NCBI RefSeq assembly: GCF_000002995.4
Contig: NW_025062478.1
Coordinates: forward strand, 806,001 to 870,000
Direction: 5' to 3'
Source: Brugia malayi
Taxonomy: Eukaryota; Nematoda; Chromadorea; Rhabditida; Onchocercidae
DNA length: 64,000 nucleotides
Of the stretch, positions 8,948 to 63,091 are shown piece by piece (position 1 is the first letter of the stretch; each line of letters begins with the position of its first letter). The notes below the pieces were generated by a model. The model saw only the letters and a list, made by a program, of their open reading frames with translations, was not told where the DNA came from and did no database searches. The position numbers and the translations under genes were made by a program.

Positions 8948-10850
8948 TAGAGGGATTAAAGGAATGAAAGAGGCGGTAATTGTTTAATTTATTTCTTGAA
9001 TTGGTTGTGACACTGTCACACACCAATTTCACACATTCTAATTTATTTGTGTATGTTTTTTTTTTTATCTATCATTTCATACAGAAATAAATTTTTATCC
9101 TTTCAGAAATGAAATTTAATTATAGCAATCATTTTTGAGTGACAGATCAATTCCTTAAGGCATTTTCCGTACTTTCTTCCGGTTAATATTATCAGTATCG
9201 TACGTAAATTACAACATCTTTCGATTGTGATATTATACCGGAAAGTAACTTTACGTTAAAAATAATTTCCTTTTCAACTAGGCATTCTATCTCTAATCTT
9301 TAAAATAATCAAAATTTGCTTTCTGATCGATGTTTGTTCAAATATAAGAATTGTGATGTCAGTTTATTGATTAATCGAAGCCAAGTTCCAGCAATTGGCG
9401 CAGATGACGCAGGCGCAAACGGATAGAAATGAAATATTGAGAATGCTTTTGGTGTACTATCGAAATTTCTATTTATATAAAACCTCAAATACTTGTTGAT
9501 TTAACTTTTCAAATGCAAATGAGCTAAGGATGACAATTGATTGCGGTCATCTGCGAGTGACCAAATTAGAGACTTCACGAATAGATAATTTCACGGACTG
9601 CTAAACATTGTTTGTAATTTGTTCGAAATGATAAAATTGTCTGAAATTCGTGGAATTTAATTTCTCTATTTAAATCTTTCTTAAAGTTTCTTTTTTCTTC
9701 GTCGAACTTTAGTTTGCTGTGCAGCAGCAAAAAATCAAAATTTTCAATAATTTTTTTTTCTACCGCAAAGTAATTTACACCTCGCAGTTTTGCAACGTTG
9801 AATGAGCTAAAGATCAGTTATCCGAATGAGTTAAAGATCAGTTATCTGATTGAGCTAAAGATCAGTTATCTGAATGAGCTAAAGATCAGTTATCTGATTG
9901 AGCTAAAGATCAGTTATCTGAATGAGCTAAAGATCAGTTATCTGAATGAGCTAAAGATCAACAAACCGGATGAGCTAAAGATCAATTATTCATCTTAGCA
10001 AAACAGAATGTTCGAGATCTAAAGTGATAGTCGAGAATATCGTTCTCATTATGTAACAATTATAATTTCAAAGTGCTATAATACAAATAAACTGTTTTCC
10101 AGTCAAAATCATATCTGGCGGTGCTATTGGACCAAAAATTCCTTTTTGAATTGAAATGTTTAGATTTAAAAAGTTAATTTATGGATGAATCTCTTACAGA
10201 CTCTATTTGAGGATCATAAAATTTGTCTGTCATAAAAAGAAGCCATAAATTTATTTGTGTTTGGTGTCGGATCATTTCAAGGCGACATCTAATCTCTGAA
10301 GTGACAATGCTTTCTGCCAGCATTTATGTGTACCATATTTCAATTCAAATTTGAATTTTTCATATTTCAATTCAAATTTTAATCTTTCATATTTCAATTT
10401 AAATTTGAATTTTTCATGTTTCAATTTAAATTTGAATCTTTCTTCAATTCAATTTAATTAGAATTTGCATTTCATTACTTTAATGGTATTTGATATGCCA
10501 TTAAGTTATGTGAGAAAAGCAAAGGATTGAAGTATGCAATTAATCTTTCTTTTTTTGGCTCCAACGATTGTTTACCGATGGATTACAGACACGGATCAGT
10601 GATAATGGCACTCTTTGATGAAAAAAACGGTATAAATTGTTTACCGTAATCAGATTAGCTTTATGCATCATAAAGCGAACGAAGTAAAAATCTCTATTAA
10701 ATATCGTTAATAGTAATTATTTAATTTTAATTATTTTAGTATAATTTAGTTATTTAATTGAATAAAACAACGATTCGTATATTTTATTTGAGTAGAATTG
10801 GGTTATTTTTGTTTAGTAAAATTCAATTTTAACAATCATCAAATGCCTAA
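8948..10850 (+). mobile_element. LTR-like repeat element, copy A (short minisatellite)
   Basis: Nearly identical to 21600-24996 in the same orientation, apart from minisatellite length and an AT-rich indel near 10720-10790. Features that suggest an LTR with adjoining leader: TGTGACAC at 9006, TATATAA at 9474-9480, AATAAA at 10086-10091, a possible CA end at 10110-10111, and TGGCGGTGCTATTGG at 10116 in the place of a primer-binding site. After this comes stop-filled sequence and a run of four ~27-bp repeats (10334-10445) built on AAATTTGAATTT. No gag or pol frame is present. Against a simple LTR, similarity to copy B begins about 58 bp before TGTGACAC. A duplicated non-autonomous element or segmental duplication is also possible. 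Confidence 0.55.
9798..9998 (+). repeat. 24-bp minisatellite in copy A, about 8 units
   Basis: About eight 24-bp units lie between 9798 and 9998. Read in the open frame they encode (N/I)EL(K/M)ISY(L/P). It sits at the same place within the element as the ~72-unit array at 22452-24175. Confidence 0.9.
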
Positions 10851-13375: not shown

Positions 13376-16300
13376 ATGATAAACGACAGCAAATCAGATG
13401 TAAAAATTAATGCGGATGAATTGTCCGAGAAAGACCTGTATCGACTAAAGCTTATTACGAGGAATTTACAGGCGCGTTACAAATAGAGATTTATTATTTC
13501 ATGCCTTGAAATGGAAAAGTGATGATCACTTATCTACAAAAGGACAATTCATATGACTTATCCTTATATATTCTACTGATCGTTTATTTTAGGAAGTTTT
13601 GGGATTGGAAAAAATTACAAAACAGTTGGCATCGAAAAAAAATATTCATGTATACTGGGGTACAGCGACTACAGGGAAACCGCATGTGGGATATTTTGTA
13701 CCAATAAGGAAAATTGCTGACTTTTTGACTGCAAATTTGAAGGTTTTTTATAATACTGTTGTTAATTAATTTTAAGGTAGCTTTCTTAGTAATACTTCAC
13801 AAAATAAGTTTCGATTGTGGAACGAATTTTTAGTGGTTTTAGTTTGTTCAAGTTTTATTGCTATTGTTTTTGCTGGAAATTCTAATTTCGCAGGATAATA
13901 GAGTAACTTCGCATCCAGGTGACAATACTATTTGCTGATTTGCATGCATTTTTGGATAACTTAAAAAGCAGTTGGGAGCTTTTGGATAATCGGGTATTAT
14001 ATTATGAAAAAGTAATCAAAGCATTGCTTACTGCATTGCATGTACCACTGGACCAGCTGCATTTTGTTAGAGGGACATCCTACCAGTTGACAAGGTTAAT
14101 TTTTCATTGAAATGTTTACTGTTTACATAATTCATTGGTTGATTAGTTAATATTGATCAATTTAGCAGGCTTTTTGTTTGGTACTCAACTACGCTCTCAT
14201 CATTTTTACATGAAATTAGTTAATAATTCATATTTTAAGGGAATATACATCTGATTTACTTCGGTTATGTAATAGTGTAACAAGGAGAGACGCTTTACGT
14301 GCTGGCGCTGAAGTGGTGAAGCAAGTAAGATTTCTTTTTCTGAATATATGCTGATTAGGTACTAAAATAAGGTCTTTAAAAGGTTTCAGTAGGTAGTTTA
14401 GTAATTCTTCGTTCCTTCTAGGTAGCATCACCCTTATTGAGCGGTTTACTCTATCCATTATTGCAAGCTTTGGATGAGCAGTACTTGAAAGTTGATGGTC
14501 AGTTTGGTGGAGTGGACCAAAGAAAAATTTTCATACTGGCTGAGGAACAGCTTCCAAAATTAAAATTAGGTAAAAGGTTTCACCTTATGAATCCTATGGT
14601 ACCTGGATTGCAGGGATCGAAGATGAGCAGGTAGTTTTTTAAATTTGTCGGTTTGTTTGATTTCCATTCTATTTTTGCCGATCAATTGAATACATTTGAA
14701 TTAGTTTTGTCAGATGCTACTTAATTTCTTAAGTCTGCGTAGCTTTCTATTGTACGGAAGTTTGTGTTTTCTCTCACTAACATTTATTGGAATTTGCTTT
14801 CTATATTTGTTGAAACGTAATAGTTTTAATTTAGTTCGGAAGAAAATTCAAAAATTGATTTGCTGGATAAAGCAGATGTAGTGCGGAGGAAAATCGATAG
14901 TGCTGTCTGCAGTCGTGATTCCGATGAAAACGGTATACTAGCATTCTGTGAGCATGTTTTATTTCCAATTATTTCTCCAAAAACAATCAGTTTTGGTGGA
15001 AAGGAATATGACAACTATGAGAATTTGCTTGAAGAATATAATGCAGGAGAGATCTCTGAAACTGCTTTGAAAGCGACTGTTAAGGTCTGTACTGTCTCAT
15101 ATTTTACCCTTATATTAAATTTGCATTAAATGGAAAAACAAAAATCTCAATAAAAATTTTCGTTAGTATTTAAATGAGTTTAACTTAATAAGTTTATCTG
15201 ATTCGTGATTACTGGTATTAGTAAATAATGCGATGAAAAGTTGTAGTCGGTGACAGAAGCTTTGAATTTGCATATTCTAATACGCGTGCTATGTTTTTAA
15301 GTAGTAAGCGTGCAAAATATGCGAAATTATTAGGTAGCAAAGGGTTCTATTGGTAGTTCAAGTGAACATACAAAAAGCCTTGATGCTGCAACAATTTGTT
15401 GCTAACATTAAATCACGTCTTGAAAGTTTACACGTAAGAAGTCACTTTGTAGTATCACAATTTATTTTCCACCACATTTCTTTTTATGAGATTTCTGATG
15501 TTTCGATCGGTTAAATTTTTTCACTAAATTTATTAGTATCATTTTGAAATGTGACACTCATGAGTCTAAGAACTATTGTTATGGCGTAGTGTGAAGCTGT
15601 TCTGTTGGCGTGTTGAGGTTTTAAGGTTCATTACCATCGCTATGCATACCTCTAAAACTGATACAGGTATGTATATTCATGTATCAGTTTCGCAGTATGC
15701 AAAATAGATATCGAGTATTCTCATTAGATACAACGATAATTCGTTGTATTCTGTAGTATTTGTTCGAACAATTCGGTTATATTTCTTCTACATTGCATTT
15801 ATAATCCATGTGTTCTTGTTTTTATTTAATTTCCTTACTTTATTTCCTTTTTTTTGATTGATTGATTACTTGGGTCATTTGATCATGCTTGTTTTGTAGG
15901 AATTTATTTGTGAGGTACTGGAAGAAGTGCAAAAGAACTGTATGGACGAAGAAATGCTATTATTACTAGAAAAAGGATATTCCACAAACATATTAGATAA
16001 TAATTTAGCACACTCTTCTAATCCTATCGTCGATGATAGCATCACTCTGAGTGGTGAAGAAGATCAAAGGTTTCGAGAAATTACCTGCGATACTGAGGTA
16101 TTTGTGTTTTATGAGATTGCATGAATGATTCTTACATAAATGTTATACTTTTAGATAATTGAACCGAAAAACTTCGTACAAATTATTCAACTTTTAATTG
16201 TATATCTTGCAGTTAGTCAGTGGTGAAATATGGCTTAAAAGACGAATCAGAGAGAATAGTTTATTACATATTGTTTATACGATAGCACCAAAAGGTCGCT

Positions 16301-18321
16301 TTCATCTGGGTTTTGTTATTCCACTTTTCAAATTGAAGGTTCTTTTTTTGATTTTCTACTTTTTTTTTAAGTTGTTTATATTTTTTGGGAATCTTCTTTC
16401 TTTTTACAAAAAAAAAAATAAGATTGTTGTGGCTCATTTTTCAAAATAATTAGTTTTTCTTAGTTTTTTCTGACTTCTCACCTGCCATTTTTATTGTTTT
16501 TGCGGGTATTAGTTTTCTCAAGATTAAAAAATATACGTCATTCATGCAGACAAATGTTATTGGAGTTATTTTACATCTCGATGGAAATTGATTTCCTCTG
16601 GCAACTTTTACTACGATCTATTGATCTTACAGGGTATTGTCATTTGACGATATATTTAATACTTTTGTGTTTAGAAACTACAGTTGCTGGGAAATGTTTC
16701 TATAACAATAGTTTTGGCTGATATCGATGCTTTTTTGGATAACGAGAAATGCTCTTGGAATATTCGAGACGCACGCTGTGATTATTATAGTATGGTTTTG
16801 CAGCAGATTTTTATTCTACTTGACTTAAAAGATATCAAAATTGTTCGAGGATCGAGCTATCAATTGGAACGGTTAGTATTATTTTTCTTAAATCACAACA
16901 TATTTATGCATGAATTGAATTTTTGCCTCAGATGGGGTAAGAATATTCGGCAAATCCTGATATTGTAGCTTAACTTCAGTTAAAATAAGTTGGATCATTG
17001 ATATTAATTTATACTTAAATTTGTTAATCAAGTATGAAACAAAATGAAGTTTATATATAGGGAATATACTTTTGAAATGTATCAGATGGCTTCCAAAGTA
17101 ACACGAGATGAAGCATCCATACTGGAAGGAGTAACATTGGGCTCATTATTATCACCTCTATACTTCACCATTGACCACTATTTTATGAATGTTGATATTG
17201 TTATAATGGGCGAAGAAATGCGTCCTTTTTCGGAATTCTCTGAGCAGGTTTTTAATTACTATTTAATTTTCAAATTATGATTGAATTTCTTTTGTTGTTT
17301 GATATAGAATGCATTTTTTATTTATTTTCATTTATATGACAATATTTGTAAATATTCTTGATTTCTCATTTTTTAATAGAGTTCTAGAAATTTACTTTTG
17401 TCATCACAAGAAGGTTAAATTATTCACAGATTGTACTTCATCGTATCTTCCGGTTTTTTAGATGATGCAACGACGTGGACAACAACCTCGTGCACATTTA
17501 TTAGTCCCAACCTTGCCATCTATGTCAGGTAGTAAAATGTCTGCATCAAATCCTGAATTTCATCTGGATCCTCTGGATACACCAAAGCAAATCAAGCAGA
17601 AGATCGCACGTTCATTTTGTGAACCTGGTAATTTAAAAGGCAATATCGCTTTTGAACTTGCAAAACAGTTTATATTTCCTCATTTTGGATCAAGTGAGTT
17701 ATCTTAATCATTTTTCATACTTCATTATAAAAATTATTTGGTGCAGTGCAATCTAAGGATTATTTAGTCTTCCGCACGAGATTTCCTTTAATACATGTTA
17801 AGTAATAAAATCTGTATGGTATAGCTGTGAACTCTATCATTGATATCCCATAACTGATCTATTTTTATTGCCCTACATAATTGCTGAAAATCAAATTGCT
17901 AATTAGTCAAGTATTTCTTTATTATTATTATTTTGCTGTTTGAATGGAAATGTAATGACTCCTTTTTGCTCATTTCCTTTACCTTTAATGTTAAAGGTGA
18001 TTATATGCATTAACCGTGTACTATTTCTTTGGAGTTGTTTTAGGGATTTTCTGAATTGCTTCGATTTTATAATGAGTAAGTGAATTTTGAATTTTAGAAT
18101 TGTTAATCGAACGTTCGGAAGAAAACGGTGGAAATATAGAGATTAATGGTTGTGATGAATTGGAAAGAATAATTGTGGATGGAAGTTTACATCCCGCAGA
18201 TTTAAAAGCAGTAGTTATATCTAAAATCAATCAGTTCTGCGACCCTATTCGAACATGTTTTACAACTAAAACAAAGTTAATATCAACAGCTTTTCCTAGT
18301 AAAAAAGGTGGTAAAAAATAA
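13376..18321 (+). CDS. yars-1: Double-length tyrosyl-tRNA synthetase
   Basis: Cytoplasmic class I enzyme that activates tyrosine with ATP and charges tRNA-Tyr. Thirteen exons join in phase: 13376-13471, 13593-13742, 13919-14094, 14240-14324, 14422-14630, 14835-15088, 15357-15433, 15900-16097, 16213-16338, 16675-16871, 17061-17247, 17462-17693, 18098-18321; about 736 residues, roughly two catalytic-plus-anticodon modules. The N half (about 1-345) has Tyr53, HVGY (63-66), [15 protein letters not shown] (190-204) and KMSSS (236-240). The C half (about 416-736) has HLGF (446-449), KMSAS (610-614) and FCEPGN (637-642), but its tyrosine-pocket positions are changed. There is no EMAP-II-like C-terminal domain; the protein ends GGKK. 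Less certain points: intron 1 appears to start with GC; the exon 6/7 junction is the only in-phase one I found; exon 10 could start at 16687. A candidate AATAAA lies at 18672. The symbol follows C. elegans usage. Confidence 0.93.
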
Positions 18322-21300
18322 TTTAAGCAATAGTGGAATATGGTCTGCTTGTATATGTTGCTATAAATTTTTAAAATATTTGAAGTGACAGCAATCATCT
18401 TTTCGTTTTTGTTTTCAATGTTATCCAAAAGGAAGCCATTTAAAATCGTAGTCATGACATGCTAGCAAATTATCTAATTCTTCAGCAAGTTCCGGATACG
18501 ATTAGGCAGTGATTTCTTTATACTTTCATTACTTCCGTCTTTTTATAATATATTTGACATTATGATTATTACAAACAACAAATTCAGTATTTATGATTAT
18601 GCTTTATTTATGATTCATTTTCTCTTAATTATTCTATTATGGAACTAAATGCAACTTTCTTTTTTTGAGAAAATAAAATGGAAGGTGAGGCCTTTTTTTT
18701 CTTTTTTCTTGGTTGTTATATTTAGAGAAATTAGGGGAATTCTGTGGACCAAATTTATATAACAGATTAAGCAGTAAAACGGTTTGGTGGTAGGGTGAAA
18801 ATCTAGTGATTTATGTAAGTCTTCCCATCTCTTTTTCTTTTTTTGTAATTTAATAAAAATCAAAAATATTGATGTAAGAATTTATAAATTTGAAATATCA
18901 CTGTTATTAGAAGAAATGATTTTTTTTAATGCTTTTATATTCATTTTGTCTGCAATATTTTATTCATATAAAGTATATTGTTGAATATTGTTTTTGTTGT
19001 CAATTAATAAAAGCTAAGCTTTTGTTTCATTTATAGCCTAAATTGCTTTGGAACATTGTCTTGAAGCATTCTGATCTTAAAATTTATGACAGTCTGAGTG
19101 TAAATACAGGTGTTCATCTTATGATTTATGTAAAAATAAAGATTAAAAAAAAAAAAAAGTCAATCATTTCATATCATTTGGTAAATTGTAATAGACGAGA
19201 ATAGAAGATCAGAGCATGCTATTCTTTATCATTAATTTTCTTTCAAACAATAATTATAACTCTAATATATCAAATATTCAATTAGAATTAATCTATAAGT
19301 TTTGTTAAATTTTAAATTGTACCTAAAATAAGTCTAATTGTCTGATTGGAAATTTATTCTTTATGCATTAATATGAAAGTAAACAAAGAAGACAGAAAAA
19401 TTTTTCTACTAATGGCAATTTTGATTTATAATCTTTAAATCATCATTTGAATATTAAAACGGTAATGATGATAGTATGATGATTGTTGTTGGTAAATACC
19501 ATTTAAGTGGAATTGCAGGGAACGATTAAAAGATCAGAACGATAATGTGTTTTGTGTTTGTGGACAGTACGAAGAGCTCAAATTCTTAATTATGGACTTT
19601 TAGGAGCAATAAGACGGATGATGAAAATGATTAATAACATTTTTGAAAGGTAGTAAATAAAAAAAATGAAATTGATAAATAACATTTTTGAAAGGTAATA
19701 AATAAAAAAAAAAAAAAAAAAAGTTACCTAAAAATTAATAATAATAAATTCTTCAAATCAATCTAAATTATACCAATTCATATAGCAATTTAATGACTAA
19801 AATTTAATCAAAATTAAATCATTATAATGAATTTTAATGATAATATTAGCTAATAATTACTTACTCTTAAAATTTTATCAAAGTATGAGTCATTTATTTA
19901 TGAAGTGAAACAGTCAGTCATTTATTTAGCAAAATAATAAATAAAAACTAAAAAAAAAAAGAAAATTTTTTTTTTTCTTTCAATATCATTTTAAGTTGAT
20001 AAATTTTTTGAAATAGTATTTAAAATTGAATATAATTAAGAATGATTATAAGTGATGACACTGCTGGTATGGTTGATGACAAAGGTCATTTCATTCATTT
20101 CATTTTTGCTTTTATTTCTTCCTAACCTTTCTTTCCTTACTTCATTTCAACATTTCGGTTTCTTTTCATTTTTCTTTTTCTTTTATCTTACCGATTCTAT
20201 TTTATTCCATTTCAAATAGATTCTACACTTCACACTAACACTATTTGTCGTAGGTTTTTTTTTAACCACCTGCAGAGTGATTCATTTGCGGAATTGTTTT
20301 GTTAACTAAATGATATGCTAGCAAAATGTACTTCCACTGTTAATTAATTAATGTACCTCATATGGAGTTTTAGCAGGTAAAAATAAGCAAATTCTTTGAT
20401 CTTTTATTTTCAAATAAAATTCAAATTGTAATCATTAAATGAGTTTAAAATATGTTTGCTCAAATAAAGTGCAAAAAATTTTCTTCCTCAAATTTTTTTT
20501 TTTTTGAAGTAAAAAAAAATTAAAAAAAATTCTTCCTAAAAATATACTATGATAAAGACCTAAAAAATATATGAAAAATACACCAACAACAACAACAAAA
20601 AAAAAGTAAACCTAAAAAAACCTAAAAAAAAACCTAAAAAAAACCTGAAAAATATTATGTGATAGAGCAAACGAATATTTTTCTCTTTCAATTTCTCTCT
20701 CACTTTTAACACTTTTCATATTTATTAATGTTTTATTTATTTATTTAATTATTTTTGTTAAATATTTTAGGCAAAAATTAAAATTGAAATATATCACTAA
20801 TATTTTATTATTTCCATATAAATTTGTTAAGTTTTTTGATGACTATGAAGTAAACAATTTGAGAGCAATGAAAATAAATTTTTCAAATTTAATAAAAATA
20901 ACAAAAAAAAAAATTTTTTTTTGCTAAAATTTTTATCTAAAATATTTGAAATATAATAATTATTAATTATTATTATATTTTATACAAATGTAAAATGTCA
21001 TTAATGGATTGTTTAGAGAATGAATGATTTGATTGTATATTTTCATCAAATTAACTTTTACTTTACTTTTATACTTTACAACAAAAAAAAAAAAAACTTT
21101 CATTTTATTTTTCTTTTTGTTATTTTTGTCAAACATAAGTGCTACTTAATAGCATTTATCATATGTAACAATTAATATTATAAAATTGAATTTAAATAAA
21201 ATGGAAGGAAAAAATTTGCGCAAAATGATTAACTCTATCAGATCAGAAGATTGACTAAAAAATAAATTTAGTTTTTCATTGTTTGATCACATAAATTTTC

Positions 21301-21599: not shown

Positions 21600-24500
21600 T
21601 AGAGGGATAAAAGGAGAGAGAAGAAGTGGCGGTAATTGTTCAGTTTATTTCTTGAATTGCTTGTGACACTGTCACACACCAATTTCACACATTCTAATTT
21701 ATTTGTGTATGTTTTTTTTTTATCTATCATTTCATACAGAAATAAATTTTTATCCTTTCAGAAATGAAATTTAATTATAGCAATCATTTTTGAGTGACAG
21801 ATCAATTCCTTAAGGCATTTTCCGTACTTTCTTCCGGTTAATATTATCAGTATCGTACGTAAATTACAACATCTTTCGATTGTGATATTATACCGGAAAG
21901 TAACTTTACGTTAAAAATAATTTCCTTTTCAACTAGGCATTCTATCTCTAATCTTTAAAATAATCAAAATTTGCTTTCTGATCGATGTTTGTTCAAATAT
22001 AAGAATTGTGATGTCAGTTTATTGATTAATCGAAGCCAAGTTCCAGCAATTGGCGCAGATGACGCAGGCACAAACGGATAGAAATGAAATATTGAAAATG
22101 CTTTTGGTGTACTATCGAAATTTCTATTTATATAAAACCTCAAATACTTGTTGATTTAACTTTTCAAATGCAAATGAGCTAAGGATGACAATTGATTGCG
22201 GTCATCTGCGAGTGACCAAATTAGAGACTTCACGAATAGCTAATTTCACGGACTGCTAAACATTGTTTGTAATTTGTTCGAAATGATAAAATTGTCTGAA
22301 ATTCGTGGAATTAATTTCTCTATTTAAATCTTTCTTAAAGTTTCTCTTTTCTTCGTCGAACTTTAGTTTGCTGTGCAGCAGCAAAAAATCAAAATTTTCA
22401 ATAATTTTTTTTTCTACCGCAAAGTAATTTACACCTCGCAATTTTATAACGTTGAATGAGCTAAAGATCAGTTATTTTATTGACCTAAAGATCAGTTATC
22501 CGAATGAGCTAAAGATCAGTTATCCGAATGAGTTAAAGATCAGTTATCTGATTGAGCTAATGGTCAGTTATCTGATTGAGCTAATGATCAGTTATCCGAA
22601 TGAGCTAAAGATCAGTTATCTGAATGAGCTAATGGTCAGTTATCTGATTGAGCTAATGGTCAGTTATCTGATTGAGCTAATGATCAGTTATCTGATTGAG
22701 CTAAAGACCAGTTATCCGAATGAGCTAATGATCAGTTATCCGAATGAGCTAATGATCAGTTATCCGAATGAGCTAATGATCAGTTATCCGAATGAGCTAA
22801 AGATCAGTTATCTGATTGAGCTAATGATCAGTTATCTGATTGAGCTAAAGAGCAGTTATCCGAATGAGCTAATGATCAGTTATCCGAATGAGCTAATGAT
22901 CAGTTATCCGAATGAGCTAATGATCAGTTATCCGAATGAGCTAAAGATCAGTTATCTGAATGAGCTAAAGATCAGTTATCTGAATGAGCTAATGGTCAGT
23001 TATCTGATTGAGCTAATGATCAGTTATCCGAATGAGCTAAAGATCAGTTATCTGAATGAGCTAAAGATCAGTTATCCGAATGAGCTAAAGATCAGTTATC
23101 TGGTTCAGCTAATGATCAGTTATCCGAATGAGCTAAAGATCAGTTATCCGAATGAGCTAATGATCAGTTATCTGATTGAGCTAATGATCAGTTATCTGAA
23201 TGAGCTAAAGATCAGTTATCTGGTTCAGCTAATGATCAGTTATTTGATTGAGCTAAAGACCAGTTATCCGAATGAGCTAATGATCAGTTATCTGATTGAG
23301 CTAATGATCAGTTATCTGATTGAGCTAAAGACCAGTTATCCGAATGAGCTAATGATCAGTTATCTGATTGAGCTAATGATCAGTTATCTGAATGAGCTAA
23401 AGATCAGTTATCTGAATGAGCTAAAGGCCAGTTATCCGAATGAGCTAATGATCAGTTATCTGATTGAGCTAATGATCAGTTATCCGAATGAGCTAATGAT
23501 CAGTTATCTGATTGAGCTAATGATCAGTTATCTGATTGAGCTAATGATCAGTTATCTGAATGAGCTAATGATCAGTTATCTGAATGAGCTAAAGACCAGT
23601 TATCCGAATGAGCTAATGATCAGTTATCTGATTGAGCTAATGATCAGTTATCTGATTGAGCTAAAGACCAGTTATCCGAATGAGCTAATGATCAGTTATC
23701 TGATTGAGCTAATGATCAGTTATCTGATTGAGCTAAAGACCAGTTATCCGAATGAGCTAATGATCAGTTATCTGATTGAGCTAATGATCAGTTATCTGAA
23801 TGAGCTAAAGATCAGTTATCTGATTGAGCTAATGATCAGTTATCTGATTGAGCTAAAGACCAGTTATCCGAATGAGCTAATGATCAGTTATCTGATTGAG
23901 CTAATGATCAGTTATCTGAATGAGCTAAAGATCAGTTATCTGAATGAGCTAAAGATCAGTTATCCGAATGAGCTAATGATCAGTTATCTGATTGAGCTAA
24001 TGATCAGTTATCTGAATGAGCTAAAGATCAGTTATCTGAATGAGCTAAAGATCAGTTATCTGAATGAGCTAATGATCAGTTATCTGATTGAGCTAATGAT
24101 CAGTTATCCGAATGAGCTAAAGATCAGTTATCTGAATGAGCTAAAGATCAGTTATCCGAATGAGCTAAAGATCAATTATCTCATTTTAGCAAAGCAGAAT
24201 TTTCGAGATCCAAAGTGATAGTCGAGAATATCGTTCTCATTATGTAACAATTATAATTTCAAAGTGCTATAATACAAATAAACTGTTTTCCTGTCAAAAT
24301 CATATCTGGCGGTACTATTGGACCAGAAATTCCTTATTGAATTGAAATGTTTAGATTTAAAAAGTTAATTTATGGATGAATCTCTTACAGACTCTATTTG
24401 AGGATCATAAAATTTGTCTGTCATAAAAAGAAGCCATAAATTTATTTGTGTTTGGTGTCGGATCATTTCAAGGCGACATCTAATCTCTGAAGTGACAATG

Positions 24501-24996
24501 CTTTCTGCTAGCATTTATGTGTACCATATTTCGATTCAAATTTGAATTTTTCATATTTCAATTCAAATTTTAATCTTTTATATTTCAATTTAAATTTGAA
24601 TTTTTCATATTTCAATTTAAATTTGAATCTTTCTTCAATTCAATTTAATTAGAATTTGCATTTCATTACTTTGGTATTTGATATGCCATTAAGTTGTGTG
24701 TGAGAAAAGTAAAAGATTGAAGTAAGCGATTAATCTTTTTTTTTTTTGGCTCCAACGATTGTTTACCGATGGATTACAGACACGGATCAGTGATAATGGC
24801 ACTCTTTGATGAAAAAAACGGTATAAATTGTTTACCGTAATCAGATTAGCTTTATGCATCATAAAGCGAACGAAGTAAAAATCTCTATTAAATATCGTTA
24901 ATAGTAATTATTTAATTAAATAAAACAACGATCGTAGTAGAATTGGGTTATTTTTGTTTAGTAAAATTCAAATTTTAATAATTATCAAATGACTAA
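21600..24996 (+). mobile_element. LTR-like repeat element, copy B (expanded minisatellite)
   Basis: Same element as copy A with only scattered base changes in the flanks: TGTGACAC at 21662, TATATAA at 22129-22135, AATAAA at 24277-24282, possible CA end at 24301-24302, and TGGCGGTACTATTGG at 24307. The main difference is the minisatellite, about 1.72 kb here against about 0.2 kb in copy A. High flank identity means the two copies separated recently or are kept alike by gene conversion. No transposase, gag or pol frame is visible, so any movement would depend on other elements. Confidence 0.55.
22452..24175 (+). repeat. 24-bp minisatellite, about 72 units, open in one frame
   Basis: About 72 head-to-tail 24-bp units. 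One frame has no stop for 588 codons and reads as EL(K/M)ISY(L/P)(N/I), with V, T or S at some Ile positions. The other five frames contain a stop in nearly every unit. Because 24 is divisible by three, a stop-free frame stays open without selection, and most unit differences change the amino acid, so I do not call a protein. Between about 23240 and 23880 the units form a three-unit (72-bp) higher-order pattern (KTSYPN, MISYLI, MISYLI/N). Each unit carries TTATC, that is GATAA on the minus strand. Confidence 0.95.
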
Positions 24997-63018: not shown

Positions 63019-63091
63019 CGACCTCGGCAGGAGTCGAACCTGCAATCTTCGGTTCCGTAGACCGACGCGTTATCCATTGCGCCACGAGGCC
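63019..63091 (-). tRNA. tRNA-Arg (anticodon ACG)
   Basis: Folds as a complete cloverleaf on the minus strand. The acceptor stem GGCCTCG pairs with CGAGGTC (one G-U) before discriminator G at 63019. The D-arm has TGGCGCAATGGATAACGCG, the anticodon stem TCGGT pairs with ACCGA around loop CTACGGA, and the T-arm has GGTTCGACTCC. The anticodon ACG is at 63058-63056 and would read CGN arginine codons after A-to-I editing. There is no intron and CCA is not encoded, as expected for a nuclear tRNA. A TTTT Pol III stop lies 10 bases downstream (63008-63005), and the D- and T-arm sequences match A and B box promoters. Confidence 0.97.

Follow-up and report, generated by a model that had tools for sequence, protein, structure and literature searches.

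The window analyzed here, a 64,000-nucleotide stretch of the Brugia malayi genome (contig NW_025062478.1, positions 806,001 to 870,000), contains a tyrosyl-tRNA synthetase (TyrRS) gene that encodes two synthetase modules in a row, and it raises the question of how a chain with two unlike modules could do the work of a TyrRS homodimer. An initial annotation, made from the sequence alone, proposed that the N half is catalytic and that the C half binds the anticodon. We observe directly a single transcript for both halves, the residue losses in each, the conservation of these losses, and intron positions common to the two halves. The chain very probably forms an intramolecular pseudo-dimer with one catalytic site and one surviving crossed tRNA path.

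Gene, transcript and residues of the two halves

The double TyrRS gene lies on the + strand at 13376-18321 (4,946 nt), with start and stop where the initial annotation had placed them, and comprises 12 coding exons with 2,130 nt of coding sequence for 709 aa. The spliced translation of the window is identical at all 709 positions to protein P0001, which represents 10 sequences from 2 contigs. The longest of these contigs, 2,513 nt, is about half as long as the gene and must therefore derive from spliced RNA; given its length and the 709 identical residues, both TyrRS halves are on one transcript. The long intron-rich region between the halves would suit two separate neighbouring genes or a wrongly merged annotation, a reading whose probability we regard as negligible. 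The intronless 709-aa P0001, in a cluster with a 2,513-nt contig, refutes it for B. malayi unless the contig is chimeric, and the same double fusion is present in 65 of 65 complete nematode rows of our survey (including the window; nine of the 65 were counted as nematode by similarity). P0001 thus spans both halves, where separate transcripts had been named beforehand as the observation that would speak against a fused enzyme. Among the matches listed, the nearest named relatives are TyrRSs of filarial worms (79-83% identity).

Both sites were located by alignment to human TyrRS (positions below are human residue, then window N half/C half). The pocket residues Y39 (Y53/V409), Y166 (Y180/S527), Q170 (Q184/F531), D173 (D187/D534) and Q188 (Q202/M549), which we take to form the human tyrosine pocket although we found no paper with these numbers, score 5/5 in the N half and 1/5 in the C half. 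The acceptor motif is R189 (R203/R550) and K190 (K204/P551), and the KMSSS motif is present in both halves, as KMSSS 236-240 and KMSAS 583-587. On the anticodon side, F249 (V263/F610), G253 (D267/G614) and N254 (S268/N615) are kept in the C half, as is the G34-contact set H305 (S313/H667), P306 (E314/P668) and D308 (A316/D670). These residues support a putative division into a catalytic N half without the anticodon H/D pair and a C half with the reverse, as initially proposed; neither module has both sites, which agrees with the proposal that the enzyme is not a symmetric homodimer of the human type. In the Methanocaldococcus jannaschii enzyme, the available text of PMC10135938 describes D286 as making two hydrogen bonds to G34, with F261 and H283 stacking; these correspond to window D670, N645 and H667, respectively, when counted along alignment ranges assumed to be gap-free. 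H667/P668/D670 versus S313/E314/A316 is a better marker of the two halves than FCEPGN, which we rejected as a decisive anticodon marker on its own, since it is merely one part of the set that was shed.

The N half is encoded by the first six exons. Exon 1 (13376..13471, aa 1-32) begins with an ATG directly after TTTTCAG/C, a likely trans-splice acceptor judging from its letters, as expected in nematodes; the following intron has a GC donor (CAG/GCGCGT, 13469-13475) that is backed by the spliced protein P0001. Exon 2 (13593..13742) contains Y53 (13653-13655) and HVGY, the HIGH motif (aa 63-66), and is followed by exons 3 (13919..14094) and 4 (14240..14324). Exon 5 (14422..14630) carries the pocket and acceptor-stem residues Y180, Q184, D187, Q202, R203 and K204 and the beginning of KMSSS (aa 236). 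The remainder of KMSSS is in exon 6 (14835..15084), together with the degenerate anticodon domain, in which VCSRDS (14905-14922) and SETALK (aa 313-318, 15055-15072) are found, the latter at the place of human HPGDLK. Tyr53, the pocket motif 190-204 and VCSRDS 263-268 were all present as annotated.

The linker and the beginning of the C half are in exon 7 (15900..16097). Exon 8 (16213..16338) contains V409 (16273-16275) at the position of pocket Tyr39 and the HIGH-like HLGF (aa 419-422). For exon 9 (16675..16871), a start at 16684 was considered and rejected. Exon 10 (17061..17247) carries S527, F531 and M549 for pocket Y166, Q170 and Q188, and VIMGEEMRP (aa 543-551, 17200-17226). KMSAS and FCEPGN (aa 610-615, 17615-17632) are in exon 11 (17462..17693). 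Exon 12 with the stop codon (18098..18321) encodes R641, N645, G646, G647 and HPADLK (aa 667-672, 18190-18207), the putative kept G34-binding site. A candidate poly(A) signal, AATAAA, is suggested by its position at 18672..18677. The initial annotation had the C-half letters right (Val for the pocket Tyr, VIMGEEMRP, FCEPGN), but its numbering after the linker was 27 too high: V409, 543-551 and 610-615 had been given as 436, 570-578 and 637-642. This shift probably arose from counting part of 15338..15433 as an exon. That open, exon-like, non-coding stretch inside intron 6 has no counterpart in P0001, and 13-exon models that include it (738 and 741 aa) were rejected. It is in frame with splice-like ends and could be a rare or failed exon.

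PF00579, the profile that covers cytosolic TyrRS of the eukaryote/archaea type, scored above cut-off in three N-half exon stretches of the gene. Across the genome (86.8 Mb, 139 contigs), it matched at least 11 stretches, in the TyrRS gene and in three other genes, which carry GGNDQLGHFDAGYDY, KKMSKSMGND, and GSLHLGHLIPFVFTKW with KMAASD, respectively. Their motifs point to a mitochondrial TyrRS, a mitochondrial tryptophanyl-tRNA synthetase (TrpRS) and a cytosolic TrpRS type, in this order. No other eukaryote-type (cytosolic) TyrRS gene thus appears among the matches in the genome, and the double-length enzyme would therefore have to serve the cytosol.

Complementary loss in nematodes and other animals

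The losses are conserved across the 65 nematode rows. None of the 65 C halves keeps Y39, Y166 or Q170; D173 is kept in 37 of them and Q188 in 14, and H305, P306 and D308 are each present in 64. The C halves also have K or R222 (63), M223 (65), S224 (55) and H49 of HIGH (53). No dorylaimid nematode (Trichinella, Trichuris) was among the matches listed from three protein searches.

To look beyond nematodes, we collected 301 proteins, the matches listed from these searches (120 rows each), and split them into modules. The queries were two asymmetric double enzymes and the window N half, and the sample does not contain the symmetric double of the Arabidopsis type. Modules were scored on 11 catalytic and 9 anticodon residues. 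Two modules, each at least 85% covered, were found in 126 rows (125 distinct, as the window occurs twice, as WIN and P0001); a further 16 proteins, which have three modules or an incomplete second one, were not counted. In 126 of 126 rows, the half that scored higher on the catalytic set scored lower on the anticodon set, although these rows are related and do not represent independent events. Both orders occur: 90 rows (89 distinct) are catalytic-N/anticodon-C, made up of 65 nematode and 16 crustacean-type rows, the flatworm Macrostomum, P0001 and seven others, and 36 have the mirror order, catalytic-C/anticodon-N. Species names are available for 10 of the 16 crustacean-type rows, which have an EMAPII domain (Penaeus, Homarus, Procambarus, Hyalella and Idotea, for example), and for three of the 36 mirror-order rows (the spider mites Tetranychus and Panonychus, and Aceria).

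H305, P306 and D308 were all kept in 124/125 anticodon halves, in 0/125 catalytic halves and in 155/160 single-module rows. The five pocket residues were complete in 124/125 catalytic halves and, among anticodon halves, in P0050 and P0076 alone. Both sites were complete in 155/160 single-module rows; the five incomplete ones were the fragments P0121 (Gongylonema), P0122 and P0123 (Anisakis), plus P0194 and P0231. Single-module enzymes with both sites intact (11/11 and 9/9 residues) include, by name, ten insects, one barnacle, two spiders and one tick.

Some proteins stood out individually. P0050 (905 aa, 3,007-nt contig) has halves that are 71% identical and a complete pocket in both; its N half is already without H305, P306 and GG, with D308 remaining, and its C half has RE for RK. 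P0050 is possibly an early-stage double TyrRS, an intermediate. P0010 (Gigantopelta, 1,151 aa), outside the two-module count, has three TyrRS modules and EMAPII; its last two modules are intact at both sites, and its first has intact catalysis and a short anticodon part. It may represent a fusion of three modules or a gene model that was wrongly merged. In P0028, P0036 and P0041 (Caenorhabditis bovis, sp. 36 and nigoni; ~1,230 aa), other class I tRNA-synthetase domains are joined to the double TyrRS, and two of the three are named mitochondrial methionine--tRNA ligase; these are probably adjacent genes merged by gene prediction.

We then compared conservation in the two halves at 160 positions shared by human and yeast TyrRS and by at least 95% of 156 single-module enzymes. 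Catalytic-domain positions were better kept in the catalytic half in 65/65 nematode, 16/16 crustacean-type and 36/36 mirror-order rows. The anticodon-domain totals lay closer together, at 0.55 in the catalytic versus 0.60 in the anticodon half for nematodes, 0.65 versus 0.69 for the crustacean type and 0.73 versus 0.77 for the mirror order. In all three sets, the anticodon half retains K242, F249, G253, R279, G284, G285 and P306, which the catalytic half has mostly lost. The same tendency is less strict for N254, still found in 0.69 of mirror-order catalytic halves, and for D308, whose share among catalytic halves is 0.56 in the crustacean type and 0.61 in the mirror order. K231, F263 and V267 swap in the opposite direction. 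The G34 loop was shorter by exactly five residues in the catalytic halves of 52/66 nematode and 25/60 other rows; among single-module rows, it was five shorter in 3/160 and six shorter in 2 more. GG at this loop was present in 126/126 anticodon halves and 160/160 single modules and absent from 112/126 catalytic halves, with the window N half (SFGG) among the 14 exceptions.

Loss across the anticodon domain as a whole is harder to see. The domain was better kept overall in the catalytic half in 15/65 nematode, 3/16 crustacean-type and 9/36 mirror-order rows. In Macrostomum, too, its positions were better kept in the catalytic half (0.74 versus 0.57), with the H-P-D set fitting the rule. Outside the key residues, both window anticodon domains are equally close to human (30% versus 30% identical), and domain identity crosses in just 37/90 and 14/36 rows. 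As a test of complementarity that does not depend on motifs, domain-wide identity thus failed for the anticodon domain, a point against the one-path reading; it also counts against general decay of one anticodon domain. It is therefore the tRNA-contact set that was shed, and not the anticodon domain as such.

Predicted fold and a proposed single tRNA path

AlphaFold2 predicted a single-chain model of the window TyrRS in which the halves are paired as a pseudo-dimer (pTM 0.86), and this model superposes 627 residues on the Leishmania chain 5usf_A at 3.1 Å. In the mechanism that we propose, the two halves of one chain would pair like the subunits of an ordinary TyrRS homodimer, in which tRNA-Tyr spans both subunits, with the acceptor end on one and the anticodon on the other. 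One crossed path would be left: the N half would take ATP, tyrosine and the acceptor end, and the C half would grip G34 via H667 and D670. Each chain would then have one charging site and serve a single tRNA at a time. The initial suggestion that the enzyme works like that of Leishmania holds for the roles of the halves and, as a prediction, for the pseudo-dimer; it does not extend to the C half, which keeps KMSAS and HLGF.

The residue pattern requires pairing of an N half with a C half, though not necessarily in cis. A domain-swapped dimer, with N-C pairing between two chains and two crossed sites per chain dimer, would have the same number of sites per chain. We consider it improbable, as the single chain is predicted with confidence to fold as a pseudo-dimer, like the solved Leishmania chains, and the linker is short. 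The C halves could also be decayed pseudo-enzymes with another role, such as regulation or scaffolding, with the N half charging tRNA as an N-N homodimer; they are long branches, and their catalytic domain retains a mean of 0.30 of the conserved positions in nematodes. This is very improbable, given that anticodon H, P and D are each present in 64 of 65 nematode C halves, and that the full H-P-D set occurs in none of the 125 catalytic halves, so that an N-N dimer would be without a complete G34 site.

Several points weigh against the predicted intramolecular pseudo-dimer with one crossed path. Whole-chain Foldseek matches to Leishmania have rmsd values of 5.3-8.1 Å, so the placement of the halves is only roughly alike, and AlphaFold2 was probably trained on 3p0h. 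The aromatic contact to G34 is replaced by N645 in the window C half, and this partner (human W283) is N in 60/65 nematode C halves. D308 is still D in 13/65 nematode N halves, and the FGG of the window N half is aligned to human KWGG by HMMER, but not by MAFFT. Finally, with the KMS and HLGF motifs kept, the C half may have a leftover ATP or tRNA role.

The mirror-order protein P0107 was also predicted as a pseudo-dimer. In its Foldseek search, Leishmania chains appear from rank 8, below chains of the human and yeast enzymes whose matches span roughly half of the model, and the 50 entries shown of the VIA list include no Leishmania chain.

Origin of the fusions and comparison with known systems

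Both nematode halves are far nearer to human TyrRS than to the Leishmania halves (376 versus 54 bits for the N half, 182 versus 52 bits for the C half), and by this comparison of bit scores the nematode and kinetoplastid fusions are separate. Six introns lie at or in the N module and five in the C module, and two of them occupy matching positions in the same phase (human 19, phase 0; 127, phase 2). This has P ~3e-4 if introns are evenly placed, and is as expected from a tandem copy of an intron-bearing gene. We propose that an intron-bearing ancestral gene was tandemly duplicated, after which the second active site and second anticodon site would have been lost, since halves in one chain may need only a single crossed path.

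In a tree of catalytic halves, nematodes form one clade and malacostracans another, P0050 is placed next to the spider Stegodyphus (100/99), and the mite catalytic halves are not one clade (two changes). With both halves included, both P0050 halves lie beside Stegodyphus (100/98), and all degenerate halves except that of P0050 cluster together (94/91); we took this joint clade for long-branch attraction and did not use it as a sign of common origin. The approximately unbiased (AU) test was applied to 35 sampled catalytic halves and five clades chosen after the tree was seen. A single clade of all 35 was rejected (p 0.0112, one of five tests); against several origins, none of the clades nematode + malacostracan (0.608), nematode + mite (0.251), malacostracan + mite (0.322) and all three (0.193) was rejected. 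These joint clades leave room for one ancient fusion common to nematodes and malacostracans, perhaps also mites, and lost in insects, barnacles, spiders and ticks. We regard this as unlikely: the insect, barnacle, spider and tick enzymes named above are single modules intact at both sites, P0050 groups with a spider enzyme, and the mite mirror order is underivable from a shared ancestor that was already asymmetric. Because a half without a site cannot be the ancestor of a half with it, site loss in the mirror order was independent; the fusion itself could be common to both orders if it was still symmetric at that time. More than two origins rest mainly on the taxonomic spread of the intact single-module enzymes.

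Tandem TyrRS fusion with complementary loss thus probably occurred repeatedly in animals, as well as in kinetoplastids, and in both orders; the animal groups concerned would be at least nematodes, malacostracans, mites, a flatworm and a relative of spiders. Largely the same anticodon positions would have been shed each time, making the crossed one-path enzyme the outcome to be expected when an obligate homodimer with tRNA bound across its subunits becomes fused. This reading of repeated fusion is weakened because two of the queries were themselves asymmetric doubles, and because some of the shed positions differ between groups.

Elsewhere in the window, a 24-bp minisatellite (unit TGAATGAGCTAATGATCAGTTATC, 72 copies) occupies 22453-24181, and an 8-copy array of nearly the same unit lies at 9799-9989. 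Each is followed by a 27/54-bp AT-rich array (24513-24657 and 10334-10468), and the same composite repeat thus lies on both sides of the TyrRS gene. ARAGORN predicted a tRNA-Arg (ACG) gene at 63019-63091 on the - strand.

Half-of-the-sites activity is described for TyrRS homodimers, although they have two sites. Natural one-path chains in both orders suggest that a single path suffices in the cell, and they offer ready asymmetric enzymes for studying communication between subunits. As regards filarial disease, what separates the enzyme from its human counterpart is its architecture (a predicted pseudo-dimer interface, a putative single site, no EMAPII domain) and not the residues of the pocket. 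The initial idea of inhibitor selectivity against the host enzyme is weak for the pocket, as the five human residues are all present in the N half, whose catalytic domain shares 66% identity with human TyrRS, key residues excluded; selectivity is therefore to be sought outside the pocket.

The T. brucei TyrRS reportedly needs both units for activity. In the available text of the papers concerned, double-length TyrRS in nematodes is already stated (PMC7564348), some eukaryotic double-length TyrRSs are described as one catalytic plus one anticodon half (PMC5370408), and the trypanosomatid enzyme is likewise split into catalytic and anticodon halves (PMC8319005, PMC9978631). Among the titles and abstract beginnings listed from an open-access library, we found no report of a crustacean, mite or mirror-order double TyrRS. 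Relative to the double length known in print, the new elements suggested here are the KMS and HLGF motifs kept where the pocket is lost, and the mirror-order relatives. Judged by its sequence, the window gene is of the asymmetric double-length TyrRS kind, of separate origin, and its non-catalytic half still carries class I motifs.

The TyrRS of C. elegans (P0048, 722 aa, 49% identity over 98%) and those of other nematodes are alike in layout and losses, and we saw no essential difference from the window enzyme. The Leishmania major/donovani enzymes (3p0h, 3p0i, 3p0j, 5usf) likewise have two modules per chain, with a catalytic N half and an anticodon C half, and the predicted window model matches them in whole-chain fold. 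As far as the available text of PMC8319005 goes, the Leishmania N-half anticodon domain is shortened by six residues, compared with five in the window enzyme, and the Leishmania C half has ARAVL in place of KMSKS, whereas the nematode C half has KMSAS and HLGF with the pocket lost. Both window halves are of the type of the human and yeast cytosolic homodimers (1n3l, 2dlc), and the N-half pocket is identical; the human-type module keeps both sites, whereas the window modules each keep one. Vertebrate single-length TyrRS has an EMAPII-like domain (PF01588), which P0001 lacks. Arabidopsis At1g28350 is also a fused duplicate, with HIGH and KMSKS reported in both copies in the available part of PMC9437257. 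Finally, the spider mite and Aceria enzymes (P0075, P0078, P0248; also P0107) share the complementary loss, but place the anticodon half first and the catalytic half second.

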